Positions 34,532-42,817 of a stretch of 64,000 nt of DNA are shown here, one piece after another; within the stretch, counting starts at the first letter, position 1; every line of letters starts with the position of its first letter. The notes under the pieces are model-generated. The model was not told where the DNA came from, did no database searches, and saw only the letters and a list, made by a program, of their open reading frames with translations. Location: the NCBI GenBank assembly GCA_949358305.1, contig OX442315.1, forward strand, positions 25,198,427 through 25,262,426. The letters run 5' to 3'. Source of the DNA: Strigamia acuminata. Its lineage: Eukaryota > Arthropoda > Chilopoda > Geophilomorpha > Linotaeniidae. The position numbers and the translations under genes are program-made.

Positions 34532-35015
34532 AGTTGGCGTAAACATTTTTTATTCATTCTTTATGACTGATCTCACTATGCCTCTCCGGAAATCAGCAAC
34601 AAGTTTGGAAACATTGTGTTTTCAAACAGTATCTACACATTACGATACAATTCATCCTTGTTTACCGAGTCTTCCAAACATTCTCATTGCAGATATCTTG
34701 ACTTTTCTCCAAAAGGAAAGCTATTCTAATGATCTGATTCTGAATCGGAACCGGCTGCATTCTAATATTTTTATTCATTCTGGCACAAAAGAACTAGTCA
34801 TGTATTTGTACATGTTTGATCTGCCTCAAGCTAAACTTTTCGATAATCTAGCCCAAAAATCTTACAAGATTAATCGCACCACGTTTTCCAACGTTTATCA
34901 ACTCCGAAAAAGTTCCATCCGAATGCGTAATTAAGATGGTGAAACAGTTACCGCAAATACGACATCTCAGTTTCCAGGGACAACAATATTGCACAGATGA
35001 AGTTGTAACTGCAGT

Positions 35016-35024
35016 CGCTACACA
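35016..35024 (+). repeat. Target-site duplication, left copy
   Basis: CGCTACACA directly before the left end of the large element; the identical nine bases stand at 41956-41964 directly after its right end. Confidence 0.85.
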
Positions 35025-35036
35025 GGCAGGGTAGAA

Positions 35037-35280
35037 TATTTTCGACTCGGATTCCTTTCGACCGCGTTTTTTTTCGACCGGATTTTTTGCGACCGGATTT
35101 TTCTCGACCGGATTGTTTGCGACCAGGATTGTTTCCGATCAGGATTGTTTGCGACCAGGATTCTTTTCGACCGGTTGGATTGCGACCTGGAATTTTATCG
35201 ACTAGGATTCTTTGCGACCAGGATTTATCTCGACCGGGATTCACTTCGACCAGGATTCCTTTCGACTTGGTCGAAATTTA
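35037..35280 (+). repeat. Left terminal array of the large element
   Basis: About fourteen copies of a 15-17-base unit close to TCGACCAGGATTCTTT, with drift mainly in the run of T and in the base after CGACC. The same word in reverse complement forms the right end of the element. Confidence 0.88.
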
Positions 35281-35529
35281 GGTAGTTTACTTTTATAAAT
35301 GGACTTGTAACGTGTCAAATTTATTCATTTTTATATTTTCTTTCATCGGTACATATTTGAACCAAAATTTTGTTTTTAGTTTATGGCGAACGAATCTAAG
35401 GTTTGTGGAGAAGGGCTATTTCGGTAATGGCTCGTGATGTATAGCAGCACATAACTGCTCCATTTGGGTAATTTTATCCTTACTTGTTAAATTATTATTG
35501 AAATTTATGTTTACATTTTTTCTTTGTAG
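35281..35529. other. Element interior left of the captured gene pieces
   Basis: Mostly AT-rich. A possible exon follows an acceptor near 35379 with a frame reading FVEKGYFGNG before a stop; it may be an earlier exon of the adjacent TFIIIC2-like fragment but is too short to assign. Confidence 0.3.
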
Positions 35530-36356
35530 CAAGTGTCCGTTAATGATTGGCTAAATTGTACGGCTACTTGCGATTCGAATGGTGAAGTAGTGGGCACAGT
35601 TTTGACCCAACTTCTGCACGGCGTTGGTAATTAGAAAAGGATATCGAGAAAACGATTCGTAAGGAATATATTTCTAGTTAATATTGATTGAAATTAAAAT
35701 GTATATTTTTTTTAATTGCAGCCAATTTATAGAACAAATGTTTGCAATCTAAAGACGCTAGAGTCCGATCTGGGTGACAAAATAGAGACAAATTCGTCGA
35801 AAAATTCAGCAGATAATTCAGCTCAAGATGTTCGAAGTGATCAATCGACGGCCGATTCTTGCGATCCAGCCAAACGAACGCCAGAGAAGACATCTGAGTC
35901 TTATAAAGAGACGCGGTCACGGATTACGGAATAGTTTTTATGGATAACGTACCGGTAAAAATCTAGAGACTCGTTTTATTGAATTGGTGGAAGTAAATGA
36001 ATATTTTATGGTACTTTAGTTTATTTACTTCTGTTACCTCTCGAGTATTCTATTACTCCTTAGCGATTTCATGCATTTTAATTGTATTTTTTATTAGATA
36101 TCAAATAATTTAATACCCCAGGACGAAATTACGCGATTAACTCACGCAAATACAATGACCTCATCTGATCTTCGTTCGTTTGAAATTGCATCCATTAATA
36201 AAGTGAGTGGAGATTAAAAATTAATATTATTTTAATCTAATTTTAATCTAATTTTAATCCTAATTTCAGGTGGCTTGGAGTCCAAACTTCGGATCGCATT
36301 TATTAGTGGCTTCGGGTGAAAATTCAGGATTAATTAGGATCCATCGAATTCATTGA
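35530..36356 (+). pseudogene. Captured WD-repeat gene fragment, TFIIIC subunit 2-like
   Basis: At least four exons of the 3' part of one gene, with introns: from 35530 (VSVNDWLNCTATCDSNGE), from 35716 (CNLKTLESDLG onward), from about 36098 (NNLIPQDEITRL) and from 36271 (VAWSPNFGSHLLVASGENSG), ending with a stop at 36354-36356. The last exon is a WD40 strand pair. Order and style recall the C-terminal half of GTF3C2 (TFIIIC beta, tRNA-gene transcription), but this identity is from memory and not firm. In the second exon the frame runs into a stop at about 35934, while the continuation DYGIVFMDNVP lies in another frame, so a one-base loss has broken it. The 5' part of the gene is absent. Confidence 0.5.
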
Positions 36357-36606
36357 TTGCAGCAGACAAAAGTAGAAAAACTACGGGTTAAATTGCAGAC
36401 GATGTTGTAAATAAAGTGAAATAATTAAAGAAAATGTCTAATTAGCATGATTTTTAATGAAATTTCTTTGAAGGTTTAGAGTTTAACTTCGGATGTTGAT
36501 AATTTTGAAACTCGTCAATCGAATTGCAATGTCATCATTTTTATTAATAAATAAAAAATTCCAAAAAAAATTACTTTGACCAAATATTTTTATTTATTCA
36601 CACGAA

Positions 36607-37919
36607 TCACATTTCTTCAGTTTCAACAACAACAGGCGCTTCATCATCATCTTCCCTATCAAAATCCCACTTGAATGTTTTCGTTAAATATTTTTTTAAA
36701 CCTTCTACCCTTTTCTACAATTTCGTGCGGTACTTGTTGGTTCCCGTTCAAATTGGAGAAGAAAGAATGCAATGTGTTGACGAGGAAGTTTTCACGACTG
36801 ACAATATCTACAAAGAAATCGCGAGGAATTTCCTGAAGTTGGTGATGAAGTACAAAAATGAATTTTGAATATAAATCTGCGTATTTCGTAAGAGCATTGT
36901 CGCACGAGCACAGCAAGTGGATTAAATGTTTCCATTCTTCAAATGCGTCGTACACCTGTCCTAAAATAAAACAAATAAAAGCCATTTGAAGTTCTCCGAG
37001 AATGTCTTCAGGATCTGTATACGATTTGAGCATTTGATCTAAAGTATAGGTCAAATCTAAACTGTTTTGTGATTTCACAAAACATTTAAGTTACTTTTTT
37101 AAAATCAAAATTGTCTTTTTTTTCTTCTTACTTTTTTCAGGAAATTTGGAAAAACGAATTTCCGTTCCGGGTTTTTGACACATTTTCGGAAGAAAATCAT
37201 CTAGTTTTGGTCTCTTATTTGTTCTTGTTGACGATTCACTCTCATCAGTTATTAAATGGGAAACTGACGAAATTTTTTTGTTTAATGGCTGCACCCGTTC
37301 TAAAACTGTGTCTAAGAGAATAAGTTTTGTATAAAATATTTTACAAAATACGAAATTTTTTTCCTTACCAGTCATGTAGTAGGTCTGGAAAATCCATTTT
37401 TTCCAGTTGTCGTATGGATAAGCGCCTAAATGTTTGTCAAGCTCCCTTAAATTCTCTTTAAGCCTGTCTATTTCTTCATCTGAAGTGACTTCATCTTTGA
37501 TATCTATATTGAACGATACACAATTCAGGTTACAGACCAATTTAAACGTTAATTAAAATAACCTTCGAGATATTTATCCCATTTTGTAACAACTATTTCT
37601 CCTTTATTGAATTAATGAAAAAATCCAGTTCTGGGTGCCATTTGGTTGTCCCGACTAACTGCACTGAAATAAAGAAAATAAATTGTGGTCATTAGTCATT
37701 GCAAAATCCAAATCCAAATTTTTAACTTCGAAATTACCTGTAATATACAAAATGAATGCCCAGAGGAATCATCTTGACACCTTTGATATCGGTTTCCACA
37801 TTCTAAGTATTGTGATCTATTCCAAATTCAGTTTTTGGTGGTACATCTAAAAATATTAATGTCACACCTTCGCGAAATAAAGTCTTTGCAACATCAGGAT
37901 CCATATCTTGTGAAGCCAT
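36607..37919 (-). pseudogene. AAR2: Captured AAR2 gene, broken
   Basis: AAR2 assembles U5 snRNP by binding PRP8. A near-complete gene with five exons and small introns is present, from the ATG at 37917-37919. Recognisable blocks are FREGVTLIFLDVPPKTEFGI, GVKMIPLGIHF, LDKHLGAYPYDNWKKWI, KPGTEIRFSKFP, LGELQMAFICFILGQVYDAF and EIPRDFFVDIVSRENFL. It is disabled three times. A TAG at 37803-37805 stands where relatives have tryptophan. A TAA at 37612-37614 follows FFH, where a glutamine codon would fit. Near the end a run of A gives a frameshift, so the expected tail (KWDFDREDDDEAPVVVE) is in another frame before a TGA at 36607-36609. It lies wholly inside the large element, so an intact copy should exist elsewhere in the genome. 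Confidence 0.88.
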
Positions 37920-38782
37920 TGTCAATTTTACACAGGTACACGGGTTTTAGCAATGTCGCTCTCTCACTTATGATGTTTGGCCTTGGTCCAAGGTTTGGCA
38001 CGTGATTGGCACTCCTCTCCAATTCTTATCGCGTCACTCGGTCACTCACCCTACATTTAGCCAGTGACTTTGACCCATTTTTCACCCCTTTGTTTTTCAG
38101 TGAAGAAAACACAAAACTTAGGGGGCACAGAAAGGCTTGGGTGCATTGCACAACTCAAAAAACACATCAAACTCAAGTTGTGTGTTCTTACAAGGAATGA
38201 CATTTACTTTTGTGGCTCAATCAGAGGAAAAAAATGTTTGAAATTAGCAAAAATGCAAGTGCAAAATGGAGAGGTCAGGGGCAAATTGAAAAATCGTCGG
38301 TGCAGACGACAATTAAATTAAATCAAATGAATAAAACCATGCAATATTTAGCCCAATTTAGTCTCAGGAGAGAGCATAATATTTTTCCTCGTTGTTTTAT
38401 AACCGTTTGTAGTAAATTATAGTTTACTAAATTTGAATTTCGAGCTCGTTTTTGAGCTTTTTATTCTGGCGATAGATGGCGACACGGTGAAATAGCTAAT
38501 TCTAGTTTAATTAAAATAAAATAAAGTTTTTTGCGAGGAATTGCAAGAATTAGTAAGTCGGAGCACTTTGGATCGAAAACTTTAATGCATTTTGTGGCTA
38601 AATGGAAGTCGATCCGTACTTAAAAAAAACATGTAATATTTATTCGCTCTGGTGCAGTTATTTTCTTCTGTATAACGGCAAATACAAACGGCAATAAATT
38701 AATGTATAAGTTTTTGCAAGTAAAATAAGTCTTATTTCATCAAATAATCAGATTTTAACGAAGGTGATATTGTTTTGAAAAC

Positions 38783-38873
38783 AATAATTTGACGCGCTGT
38801 CTTTGAAATTGTTGGAAAACAATGTTTTTTCGCATGTTTTCCAACAATTTCAAAGATAGCGCGTCAAATTATT
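38783..38873. repeat. Near-perfect hairpin, 39-base arms
   Basis: Arms 38783-38821 and 38835-38873 are reverse complements with one mismatch around a 13-base loop. The left arm begins AATAATTTGACGCGCTG. Such a stem could be a very short foldback element or the source of small RNAs when transcribed. No target duplication was recognised at its borders. Confidence 0.85.
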
Positions 38874-39352
38874 CCGATGGGCGACTTCGCTGCGAAACAC
38901 GTGGTCGCTAAGCAACGGAGCGATGGATAATTCTTCGCTAAATTTTAACAGTATTTTACCATTCTATTTTATATTGGTTTAAAAAAAGAAACCATGCATA
39001 ATTTATTGAGCATGAAATGAGATTCACTTTGGTGGTCAAAATGGAAGCAAATAAACTATCGGTGTTTTAATTCGTTTTTAATTTTTAATGCCAAACAGAT
39101 TAGCGTAAAATGCTCCAATACATAAATATAAATCAAATAAAAATGACGTTTAGAAGTTTTTTTTTTGTTAGAAACCAATTTGGAAATTCTATTATAGGAA
39201 ATTATGCGGAATGGTGGGGGAAATGTTTGCACCTGTGTGAATCTAATAAAATCACAGAAATTTATGACTCCTAGGACGAATATTCTTCAAAAAAATTAAT
39301 ATGAAACATGAAACTTTGACAATTCAATTTGTGGCGCAAGTCGGAGAGTTTA

Positions 39353-39354
<2 letters not shown>

Positions 39355-39410
<56 letters not shown>

Positions 39411-39423
39411 GTGTGTGTGTGTG
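39355..39423. repeat. GT dinucleotide microsatellite
   Basis: About 34 GT repeats, interrupted once by GGGTGGG. Likely polymorphic in length. Confidence 0.97.
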
Positions 39424-40290
39424 ACCTGTGTGAAGAGGGGCCGGAAGTGTCTTTACCCTTGAGAGGTGTGATATAAATGGCAGCAGGTGTTCCTCCTCCA
39501 ATATTCAGTAAAGAGACACCAGTCTCCTTTAGGCAAAGTCAACCCGACAGGTGTTTGAAGGGAAATGCAAGAAAAATAAATGGAAAATATAAAAGAAAGA
39601 GAGAAAGAAAGAAAGATACGACGTTCCTCGCTTTACTTGGGGCACATAACCATGAAATTAGCTTTTTTCCTGTGGCATAAAGGTGATGAGACAAATTATA
39701 AAAAGATTTTTTTTTTCTTAAAAGTTTAATTCCACATTACCGGTATGTTTGATAAATGATTTTTTGGTTAAATGCACTGCCATGAATATGTCATGATGTT
39801 TGATTCCAAGGCTTCTCACTTCCTCATAATAACCCAGGCCTTGATGTGACCTGATAAAGAGGTCTTCATTCAGCTGATTTACACCTGTTTCATTTGTTGT
39901 TTTATTTTCATTTTATGGAAGTTGTTGAAAAAGTTTTTGGTGGTAAACTTTATCAAGTTTCTGTTTCAAACATGCATTTCGTGGGATTTAAATTAATTAA
40001 ATTTAATTTAATTTTAATTTAATTTAATTTTAATTTTCTGGAAATATTTTTTTCTTTTAAAATTTGAATTTTGAATAGAAATCAAAAAAGTCACTAATTC
40101 AAGAGACAATATAATAATTTTGTTTTCCAAAACTGGAATAATTGACAAGTCTAAATGACTCGGTAATTGAATTTTCCCTCAAATTTTCCGTCGAATTTTT
40201 CACTCGCCTTGACCTGCGCGCTCACGTGCGCGCTTGACCTGCACCCACCTGCGCCCCTCGCTTTTAATTTAATTTTTTAACTTTGGTTAT

Positions 40291-40497
40291 TGTTAAGTTA
40301 TGTTAATGTAATGTTGAGTTCATTGTTGAAGAACGTGTTATTGCTATATCATACTGTTACATTGTTGTAAAAGCGTTACCATGACAATTTTGTATTACTC
40401 CTCACTTGCTTGTATTTTACCCACGAGTAAAGACGTGTGTTTTGTTTTCCACTTTAAAAACCTCTCCTTTATTTCAACGTGATGCCCCAGCATAACA
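40291..40497 (+). mobile_element. Solo LTR of a retrotransposon
   Basis: A 207-base segment starting TGTTA and ending TAACA, the usual TG...CA inverted termini of LTRs, flanked on both sides by the 5-base duplication GTTAT (40286-40290 and 40498-40502). No internal retrotransposon genes remain, so it fits a solo LTR left by recombination between two LTRs. It is nested in the large element, so it arrived later or was captured with host DNA. Confidence 0.72.
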
Positions 40498-40697
40498 GTT
40501 ATTAAAATTTAGCAATATCTTTGGTTTATTTTTTGTATTTTTAATATTGTTTACTATTGGCTGGAATTAGGTTTTGCTTTCGTGTTAATTTCTGAATTTT
40601 GGAGTGTTTTATTACATAACTTGATCAAAACTGCCGGTAAATTTCATATTTATTATTCAGTTTTAAAGATAATGATGTGATGATAATATGCATCTTT

Positions 40698-40770
40698 CCA
40701 AGTCCCATCGAATCCCCTCCGAATCCCATCCGAATCCCCAGAATCTATCCGAATCCTACGAATCCCATCC
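40698..40770. repeat. Short GAATCC-rich repeat
   Basis: Eight or so copies of CCGAATCCCAT-like words of variable spacing. It is similar in build, though not in sequence, to the terminal arrays. Confidence 0.6.
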
Positions 40771-41282
40771 GTATAAAAAAAACAAAAACAAGTATTATCC
40801 TGTAATATTCACAGCATCGTATCACAACGTTTATTAGCAATATCAAAAAGAAAAAACAACACATTATATTTTTGATATTGTCGATCTAAACAAACTTAGT
40901 TTATTTAGCAGCTATAGAACATTTTTAATTTTATTATTAGTGGTGCTCTTTATTTATTTAGAAAAATGTAAATGTCAATGGAAAAAAAATATTTTTGTAC
41001 ATTATTTTGTAAATTACATCTGCCTTGTGGCAGCACTGTTTTTAGAATATTTTACAGTAGTTTAATTTTATAATAATGAGAAATAAAAGCATTTTCACAC
41101 GAATTTAATCGAATCCGATGTTTTTTCATTTGTCGAAAGAAAAAGTAGAAAAATAGGTTTGATTCTGCTTGTTTGCGACTCCAATGATGAAATTAAAGTT
41201 TGAAATTAATTTACACAGTTTTTATTTATTTGTTTGTTTATTAAAAAAAAAAATTGAATTGAAAATAAAGATTTTTGTCCGC

Positions 41283-41468
41283 TTATTGGTACTCTACCCT
41301 GAATCCCGATATAAAAGATAATCCAGTAGGCACGTTCTTCTGATATTTCACGTAATCTTGACCAAAAAAATTTAAAAGAATGAATTCTTCTTCGTGTATC
41401 CGCTCGTTAAAGAAATTCCATGATGCGATAGTGTAACCGATTAAACAGATCGGATTGCACAATACAAT
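41283..41468 (-). pseudogene. ICMT: Captured last exon of ICMT
   Basis: ICMT is the endoplasmic-reticulum methyltransferase that caps prenylated CAAX proteins. One 186-base exon after a TTGCAG acceptor encodes IVLCNPICLIGYTIASWNFF, then NERIHEEEFILLNFFGQDY and VPTGLSFISGF before a stop at 41283-41285. These match the C-terminal membrane and catalytic region of ICMT as I know it. The exon itself is intact, but no earlier ICMT exon precedes it before the element ends, so it is an orphan piece. A donor from another gene could in principle splice to it. Confidence 0.75.
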
Positions 41469-41727
41469 CTGCAATTAGAAATAAACTTTTAGTGAGTAAA
41501 TGCTATAAAGAAGGCTGCAAAAGTAGATTATTTGCTTCTAAAAAATGCTTATTCAAGAAACACAATTCCAGCAATTTCCATTAAAAAATATAGTGTTGGA
41601 TTGAACAATACACATTACTCCTGTCATGTATGCAATACGTGTCATCGTCACGTATTGTATACTGACATCGTCAGTTATATAATGCGTGACATTATTTGGG
41701 GTATATAAACCCCCAACCATTGGTGAA

Positions 41728-41950
41728 GTCGAAAAATGTCCGGTCGAAAAAAATCCTGGTCGAGATGAATCCTGGTCGAAAATTTTCCTGGTCGAAAATT
41801 ATCCTGTTTGAGTCGAAAAAATTCCTAGTCGAAAATTTTCCTGGTCGAAAATTTTCCTGGTCGAAAATAATCCCAGTCGAAAAAAAGCGCACTTTACCTC
41901 GAGTCGAAAAGAATCCCGGTCGCAAAGAATCCGGGTCGAAAATATTCCTC
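41728..41950 (-). repeat. Right terminal array of the large element
   Basis: About twelve copies of the element's terminal word in inverted orientation (here GGTCGAAAATTTTCCT-like). One plus-strand frame stays open through the whole array into the right half of the LRR gene, so a chimeric frame of 373 codons exists from 41696 to 42817. Confidence 0.88.
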
Positions 41951-41955
41951 CTCGC

Positions 41956-41964
41956 CGCTACACA
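41956..41964 (+). repeat. Target-site duplication, right copy
   Basis: CGCTACACA, identical to 35016-35024. The reading frame of the LRR gene resumes here. Confidence 0.85.
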
Positions 41965-42817
41965 TTGTCTACAGTTAGAATTATTCGACATATCAGACTG
42001 CAAAAATGTAACCTCTAATGCATGCTTATTTGTTTTAAGGAATCTACTCTTTCTCACTCGGTTTGAACATTCTCATTGGGAAAAATTGTTCGTTCTTTTA
42101 AGACAAGAACTTAGTTCCAATCCAACATTGACTTATTCTATTGAACGGGCATTTATATGTTTTTCCTTCAGTTGTGATTTGGTCAATGCTACCGTTATAT
42201 TTCCAAATTTACGTATATTTGGTATTACGTCGTCGCTGATGTCTCATCTTAGTTTTAGCACACACATTGCCAAAGCATTACGTGACTCATCAGGTAAGAA
42301 ATTAGTTGGCTTATACCTTGACTACATCCATCAAGTCAATGTTAGAGATATTGACTTCTGCTGTCCAAACTTACAGAGCTTGTCATTGATAGATTGTCGC
42401 TTTAAGGATGAATTAGACAATAATGAATATTTGCAAAATTCGACTCATTTTTTGTTCAAAAATTTACAAAAGTTGCGTGTAAGAGGGTCGATTGCAGGCA
42501 TTCCCGAATTACAATTGCAAATATTATTAAGCTGTCACTGTATTAAAGAGTTAGAACTTGGATACTGCAGCACGCTAACTGATGGCTTGATTACACAATT
42601 TGCAATGCCAAATCTCAGGTGTTTAAAACTTAAAAGGTGTAGGTTTATTAGTTCAAGCTCAATTATAAAATTAGTAGACAGTCAAAGCCCTTTAAATGAG
42701 CTATCCTGCGAATATTGTATAAACCTCAACCAATCGGCTTGCTGTCCAATCAGAGCGCTCATTAAAAGAAAAAATTTGGATTTGAAATTTACTGAAAAAC
42801 ATTTAACGGAAATTTGA

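Follow-up and report, generated by a model that had tools for sequence, protein, structure and literature searches.

In a 64,000-nucleotide stretch of the Strigamia acuminata genome (C3:25198427-25262426, hereafter the window, whose own positions are given without a contig name), a 6932-bp insert very probably represents a non-autonomous cut-and-paste DNA transposon with foldback-type ends, which captured host DNA and would have been moved in trans. The element is Pack-MULE-like and was probably moved by a Mutator-like element (MULE). The evidence supports the view that this transposon inserted into a leucine-rich repeat (LRR) gene and split it. The genome comprises 237.5 Mb in 157 contigs, and the features of the insertion, including its terminal inverted repeats (TIRs), were as follows:

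35025-41956, + strand: complete non-autonomous TIR transposon, 6932 bp, with borders set by 12 uninterrupted near-identical copies and by 8-bp duplications
35025-35266, + strand: left TIR, beginning GGCAGGGTAGAATATTTTCGAC..., then about 14 copies of a 16-bp word (TTTTCGACCCGGATTC)
41728-41956, - strand: right TIR with arrays of the same 16-bp word (41728-41885 and 41903-41942), ending ...CTCCTCGCC
35017-35024, + strand: left target site duplication GCTACACA, from flank comparison
41957-41964, + strand: right target site duplication GCTACACA, from flank comparison
34852-35024, + strand: upstream part of the broken LRR (F-box/LRR-like) frame
41965-42817, + strand: downstream part of the broken LRR frame

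A preliminary description of the window had proposed inverted ends that grow into arrays of a 16-base word, and arrays were found at both ends of the element. The left array occupies 35039-35266, and the two right arrays are inverted relative to it. Long TIRs made of tandem repeats, here the 16-bp word with about 14 copies on the left, are what characterizes foldback elements. When the genome was searched with a 21-base terminal pattern allowing up to two mismatches, 105 matches were obtained (array-internal ones counted), compared with 0 for the backwards control.

The genome contains about 15 copies of the element, comprising 12 uninterrupted near-identical copies (window included), two near-identical interrupted copies, and one older copy. 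The left 376 bp matched at 100% in 13 places, 12 of them over all 376 bases and one over 375, while the right 376 bp gave a top-score match in 13 places plus one near-perfect match. The 6201-bp interior aligned end to end in 12 places, the window among them, with a 4-bp gap in two. Ten of the 12 uninterrupted copies, again with the window, lay no more than 9 bits below the maximum interior score, a spread that we read as at most about two substitutions, and in either 1870-bp arm none of the 12 departed from the window copy at more than one base. The interrupted copies were located at C8:6715129-6725005, whose left-arm difference count is unreliable owing to distortion by its insertion, and at C1:14136481-14144247. 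The older copy (C8:11350433-11368931) was 94-99% identical by block, mostly 97%. Two long terminal repeat (LTR) retrotransposons with single frames of 1748 and 1386 aa were observed inside this older copy (L066/L067, C8:11350400-11368950), and from their frames they were read as BEL-like and gypsy-like.

Inverted terminal repeats with constant end points in several copies are a property of class II elements, as is a target duplication of constant length, which is 8 bp here. The flanking 8-mers were identical in 10 of the 13 copies tested, all ten 8-mers being different, and the other three had no duplication. The older C8 copy carried TTTGATAC on both sides, and the flanking 8-mers of the C1:14136481 copy agreed at 7 of 8 bases. 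Over all 15 copies, the duplication was perfect in 11, matched at 7 of 8 bases in one, and was absent in three; these three weigh against a cut-and-paste element. A 9-base repeat had been described at the window borders, and CGCTACACA does stand at both; the duplication itself, however, is 8 bp long. The ninth base agreed in only two of the ten copies with perfect duplications (window and C3:3756322), and the apparent 9-bp match in the window arises from a chance identity between the base preceding the duplication and the last base of the element. The 9-bp duplication was consequently rejected in favor of the 8-mer GCTACACA, which places the element at 35025-41956.

The very high identity among the copies would also be expected of a segmental duplication, or of an assembly artefact, that happened to sit between minisatellites. 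This explanation is very improbable, as the compared copies share both end points, their duplications differ copy by copy, their flanks are unrelated, and an open frame runs through the empty site in the window. In the 13 tested copies, the flanks were mutually unrelated except for one 295-bp match at 73%, which disfavors a misjoined assembly (no reads were examined), and the many further copies of the ends remove the concern that they might be unique to this locus. Helitrons are not known to have TIRs or to make a target duplication. Capture by a Helitron is refuted by the duplications and has a negligible probability, since long TIRs are present and 11 of the 15 copies have a perfect 8-bp duplication, although several gene fragments can be carried by Helitrons (PMC6431247).

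With the insert deleted and a single 8-mer left at the site, a 341-aa open frame crossed the join, which falls at residue 57; the longest frame at 20 random sites in the same 3 kb averaged 140 aa. As a whole sequence, this frame matched F-box/LRR-repeat protein 17 (8uah_B) with an E-value of 2.6e-6, which is the sum of several weak stretches, none of them significant singly; the best stretch, residues 19-88, spans the join. The Pfam LRR matches of the joined frame were below their cut-offs. The earlier proposal that the LRR frame is continuous once the insert is ignored is thus borne out by the 341-aa frame and its resemblance to F-box/LRR protein 17. At 12 other tested copies, seven insertions lay in frames longer than the local mean and five in shorter ones, and the two longest frames (157 and 137 aa) had no Pfam family above the cut-off. 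Because these frame lengths are mixed and the longest lack a Pfam family, an insertion preference for genes was not shown.

The cargo is intron-containing host DNA drawn from three or more unlinked loci, and the parents, which are 93-95% identical, were located on C4, C3, and C1, in agreement with the three unrelated genes that had been recognized initially. The following segments were distinguished:

35367-36528, + strand: captured 3′ part of GTF3C2 (TFIIIC subunit) with introns kept; parent C4:12109749-12110917, 92.9%
36524-37941, - strand: captured AAR2, whole coding span with four introns; parent C3:28565782-28567243, 92.6%
38974-40095, + strand: cargo block resembling C4:11048795-11050752 (84% and 91%)
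40291-40497, + strand: solo LTR (TG...CA) with the 5-bp duplication GTTAT
40771-41560, - strand: captured last exon and 3′ DNA of ICMT; parent C1:11046258-11047052, 94.9%

Host-derived sequence between TIRs with identifiable parents (GTF3C2, AAR2, and ICMT) is a defining property of Pack-TIR elements. The name GTF3C2 is based on a weak match of one parent exon to 8cli_C (E 0.012), and another exon of this GTF3C2-like parent matched nothing. The AAR2 piece covers all five exons and matched PF05282 with an E-value of 9.3e-43, and the last exon of its parent matched 7pjh_A (E 2.9e-51). The captured AAR2 is decayed: it has acquired two stops and indels that break the frame, and 28 bp are deleted across an intron-exon border; compared with the parent, it has 18 synonymous and 20 nonsynonymous changes in gap-free codons. 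The last exon of the ICMT parent matched 5vg9_A (E 4.3e-21), and the ICMT piece in the window reached 20.7 bits in Pfam, under the cut-off of 24. No Pfam domain was found in the block at 38974-40095 in the scan of the window element. A 97% inverted repeat with 39-bp arms was also observed within the cargo (38783-38873), perhaps a small nested element.

The solo LTR is absent from the older C8 copy, which has an empty site at this position, and nearly the same 207 bp occur at C1:50425097 and C1:50429759, 4.7 kb apart. Since the older copy shares the cargo but not the solo LTR, capture preceded the LTR. The order of events, as read from the compared copies, was capture, split from the C8 copy, LTR insertion, and a recent burst.

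Elements with similar ends and other cargo had been anticipated in the preliminary description, and relatives with closely similar ends, 8-bp duplications, and different cargo mixtures were found on C5, C11, and C12. The C5 relative (C5:9287396-9296561) contained ICMT (24.4 bits) and PAP2 (27.6 bits) above the cut-off and WD40 below it; one of its blocks was 94-96% identical to C3:23425448-23428423, and the next was 90-96% identical to C1:11047538-11048956, beside the ICMT parent. The C11 relative (C11:7100153-7111769) was 87-99% identical to the C5 relative over common blocks and had an additional 478-aa frame, which was read as copia-like. The C12 relative (C12:437723-454727) carried AAR2, ICMT below the cut-off, and a Syf1/CRNKL1 HAT-repeat piece (39.2 bits). 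Four relatives were read for duplications, and three had 8 bp (AATTTGTG, ATGGGGAT, and CGTGGGAC). The fourth, L068, had no matching duplication, a point against the proposed type of element, and was rejected as a full-length relative. Two open frames were observed among the relatives. A 172-aa frame was the same in two of them (L061 5939-6454, - strand; L062 3323-3841, + strand) and partly present in the window element, with no Pfam match and no convincing PDB match; a 501-aa frame in the 17-kb C12 relative (L064 4504-6006, - strand) had no Pfam match.

As had been noted at the outset, no transposase is encoded within the window element, which is a further property of Pack-TIRs: in a six-frame Pfam scan with E-values up to 0.05, only AAR2 domains and ICMT were detected, with no transposase domain. 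The C12 relative likewise had no transposase domain at E-values up to 0.01. A 16.6-kb relative at C4:7720636-7737280, however, holds the MULE domain PF10551 (41.9 bits, cut-off 27.6) with a RING open reading frame (ORF) 1.4 kb downstream. The RING-side DNA and the neighboring cargo recurred in the same order on C13, 0.9 kb apart, with 96% and 98% identity. The 8-bp duplication and long TIRs also agree with MULEs, whose duplications range from 8 to 11 bp (PMC6446971). Of the full-length relative of Mutator type expected from the preliminary description, the C4 relative, with similar ends, a MULE domain, and a RING ORF, is a suggestive counterpart; no intact autonomous element with these exact ends was found. 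Among 150 scored MULE-domain matches genome-wide, one lay inside the 21 listed family elements compared with 0.12 expected, and eight were within 20 kb of a listed array compared with about 1.8 expected, a count made after the fact in which two (L069 and C9) belong to separate MULE families. The input for these proximities consisted of 149 of the 150 MULE rows, of which 134 were entered at their actual positions and 15 as placeholders on contigs lacking listed arrays, together with 66 of the 143 P rows, the rest being compared by eye, and 18 of 19 Merlin rows. It further included 100 array positions and the 21 elements, with other candidate elements left out and the left end of the C3 6.74-Mb element estimated.

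Several observations weigh against mobilization by a MULE. None of the copies found combines these ends with an intact transposase, and the MULE piece of the C4 relative could be cargo or a nested insertion. The catalytic MULE part was not matched on C13, where only the RING side was. Copies of the same MULE at C1:58.01, 57.75, and 36.77 Mb had no nearby array in a strict dimer scan that took in C1, the nearest being a 108-bp fragment 20 kb from the 36.77-Mb copy, and the other MULEs that were read (L069-L071) have different TIRs. Since only the RING side and not the catalytic part recurs on C13, our confidence that the mobilizing transposase is a MULE is only slightly better than even, and the Mutator link of the family is suggestive.

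The MULEs L069 and L070/L071 were considered as autonomous partners and rejected, as their own TIRs begin GGGACAGGAT; L069 moreover sits in an array as a nested insertion. The MULE L069 874-6862 (C1:6934180-6941130) gave SWIM and C48 protease matches and, weakly, a PHD match. A GGTTGAACGG-like unit is repeated in its own TIRs, and the 8-bp duplication GATTATTT marks its insertion into an array end of an element related to that of the window. L070 (C4:16983500-16991500) and L071 (C9:7228500-7237500) belong to a separate, apparently young MULE family with ends GGGACAGGATAATTTGCGGAACC..., six equal-score matches, a 1075-aa open frame, and the 9-bp duplication TAACGGCGC in the C9 copy.

Other transposases were weighed for the same element. 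Merlin and hAT elements both make duplications of about 8 bp. Duplication length alone favors an element of either type, which is quite improbable: none of the 18 entered Merlin matches (of 19) lay within 20 kb of a listed array, no Merlin domain was inside the listed elements, and hAT was not searched for. Mobilization by a P-superfamily transposase is also unlikely, if somewhat less so. An 8-bp duplication and internally repeated TIRs fit the P transposase of the foldback-like Galileo of Drosophila (PMC4079207, PMC3169594), the genome contains 143 P-type transposase-domain matches, and one of them lies 1.2-1.6 kb from the array fragment at C1:36754280. None was seen inside the 21 listed family elements, however, with 66 matches checked by script and the others by eye, and P-type and MULE fragments are dense in this part of C1, where they form a cluster with one array fragment at C1:36.74-36.81 Mb.

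For a MULE-mobilized Pack-TIR, the following sequence of steps may be envisaged. A transposase supplied in trans would bind the repeated 16-bp words in the ends, excise the element, and insert it with an 8-bp staggered cut, and copy number would rise via refilling of excised sites or movement after replication. The ancestor took up host DNA with its introns (the GTF3C2 tail, AAR2, and the ICMT end), directly as DNA; template switching in the course of repair between the element ends is the probable route. We infer the trans mobilization, the template switching, and the MULE identity of the transposase. The composite acquired the solo LTR afterwards and has spread only very recently; one of the new copies landed in a coding exon of the LRR gene.

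The element resembles animal Pack-TIRs, including Ssk-FB4 of Drosophila, in having host DNA between TIRs and in occurring as several copies, each with its own duplication. Across 100 animal genomes, one survey reported four multicopy Pack-TIRs, no Pack-MULE in the reference genomes, and captured pieces whose median size over all cases was 224 bp; Ssk-FB4 has 9-10 bp duplications and four copies, and FB4 was treated as a likely MULE (PMC8277862). The present element differs in its 15 copies, in about 3.4 kb of cargo drawn from three or more host loci, in the capture of a complete coding span, and in its 8-bp duplications. Plant Pack-MULEs are likewise non-autonomous, with gene fragments between TIRs and a transposase in trans (here presumed), and full-length gene capture by them is exceptionally rare (PMC6431247); the differences here are an animal host, minisatellite ends, a full captured coding span, and a MULE that is a candidate only.

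Among foldback-like elements, Tm1 Mutator/Foldback of root-knot nematodes is an animal family with internally repeated TIRs and non-autonomous forms, but its duplications are mostly of 9 bp, the same TIRs enclose a Phantom-type MULE transposase, its non-autonomous forms measure about 1 kb, and it was called inactive (PMC3169594). The Tetris foldback of Drosophila virilis shares tandem repeats in the TIRs and the lack of a detected transposase; it has 8-10 bp duplications, and host genes are not mentioned for it in the available part of the source (PMC4079207). MULEs have long TIRs and 8-11 bp duplications, with 8 bp in Spectre, while Rehavkus has a 9-bp duplication and a PHD-finger transposase (PMC6446971). 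Membership in Rehavkus was rejected in view of the 8-bp duplication and the absence of a PHD match in the window element and the C12 relative. Ghost MULEs offer a parallel to the C4 relative in that a MULE transposase ORF is accompanied by a separate RING ORF in the most complete of them, whereas for arthropod Ghost no TIRs or duplications were identified (PMC6446971); the likeness here is one of ORF make-up. In the literature search, which drew on partly available texts, no animal foldback element with several captured genes turned up.

Outside the element, a perfect 21-bp tandem repeat of 6.6 copies was observed at 1798-1935 of the window.

A broader, tentative reading is that a RING-type (Ghost-like) MULE lineage with foldback minisatellite ends acts as a serial gene-shuffling system, of which one composite has just burst to about 15 copies. 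Such elements might collect and recombine DNA of many unlinked loci, up to whole intron-containing genes. This reading is less likely than not; if true, it would provide Ghost MULEs with their missing ends and yield a multi-gene, multi-copy Pack-MULE family in an animal, with no counterpart in the available parts of the surveys cited. Most work on gene capture by DNA transposons has concerned plants, and the 100-genome survey yielded only four multicopy animal cases (PMC8277862). In the present element, one complete coding span was copied along with parts of two further genes; the pieces were joined, and they multiplied so recently that the copies are almost identical. Since the parents and an older, mostly 97% identical copy survive, it can be tested directly in an animal how capture proceeds and what becomes of captured genes.

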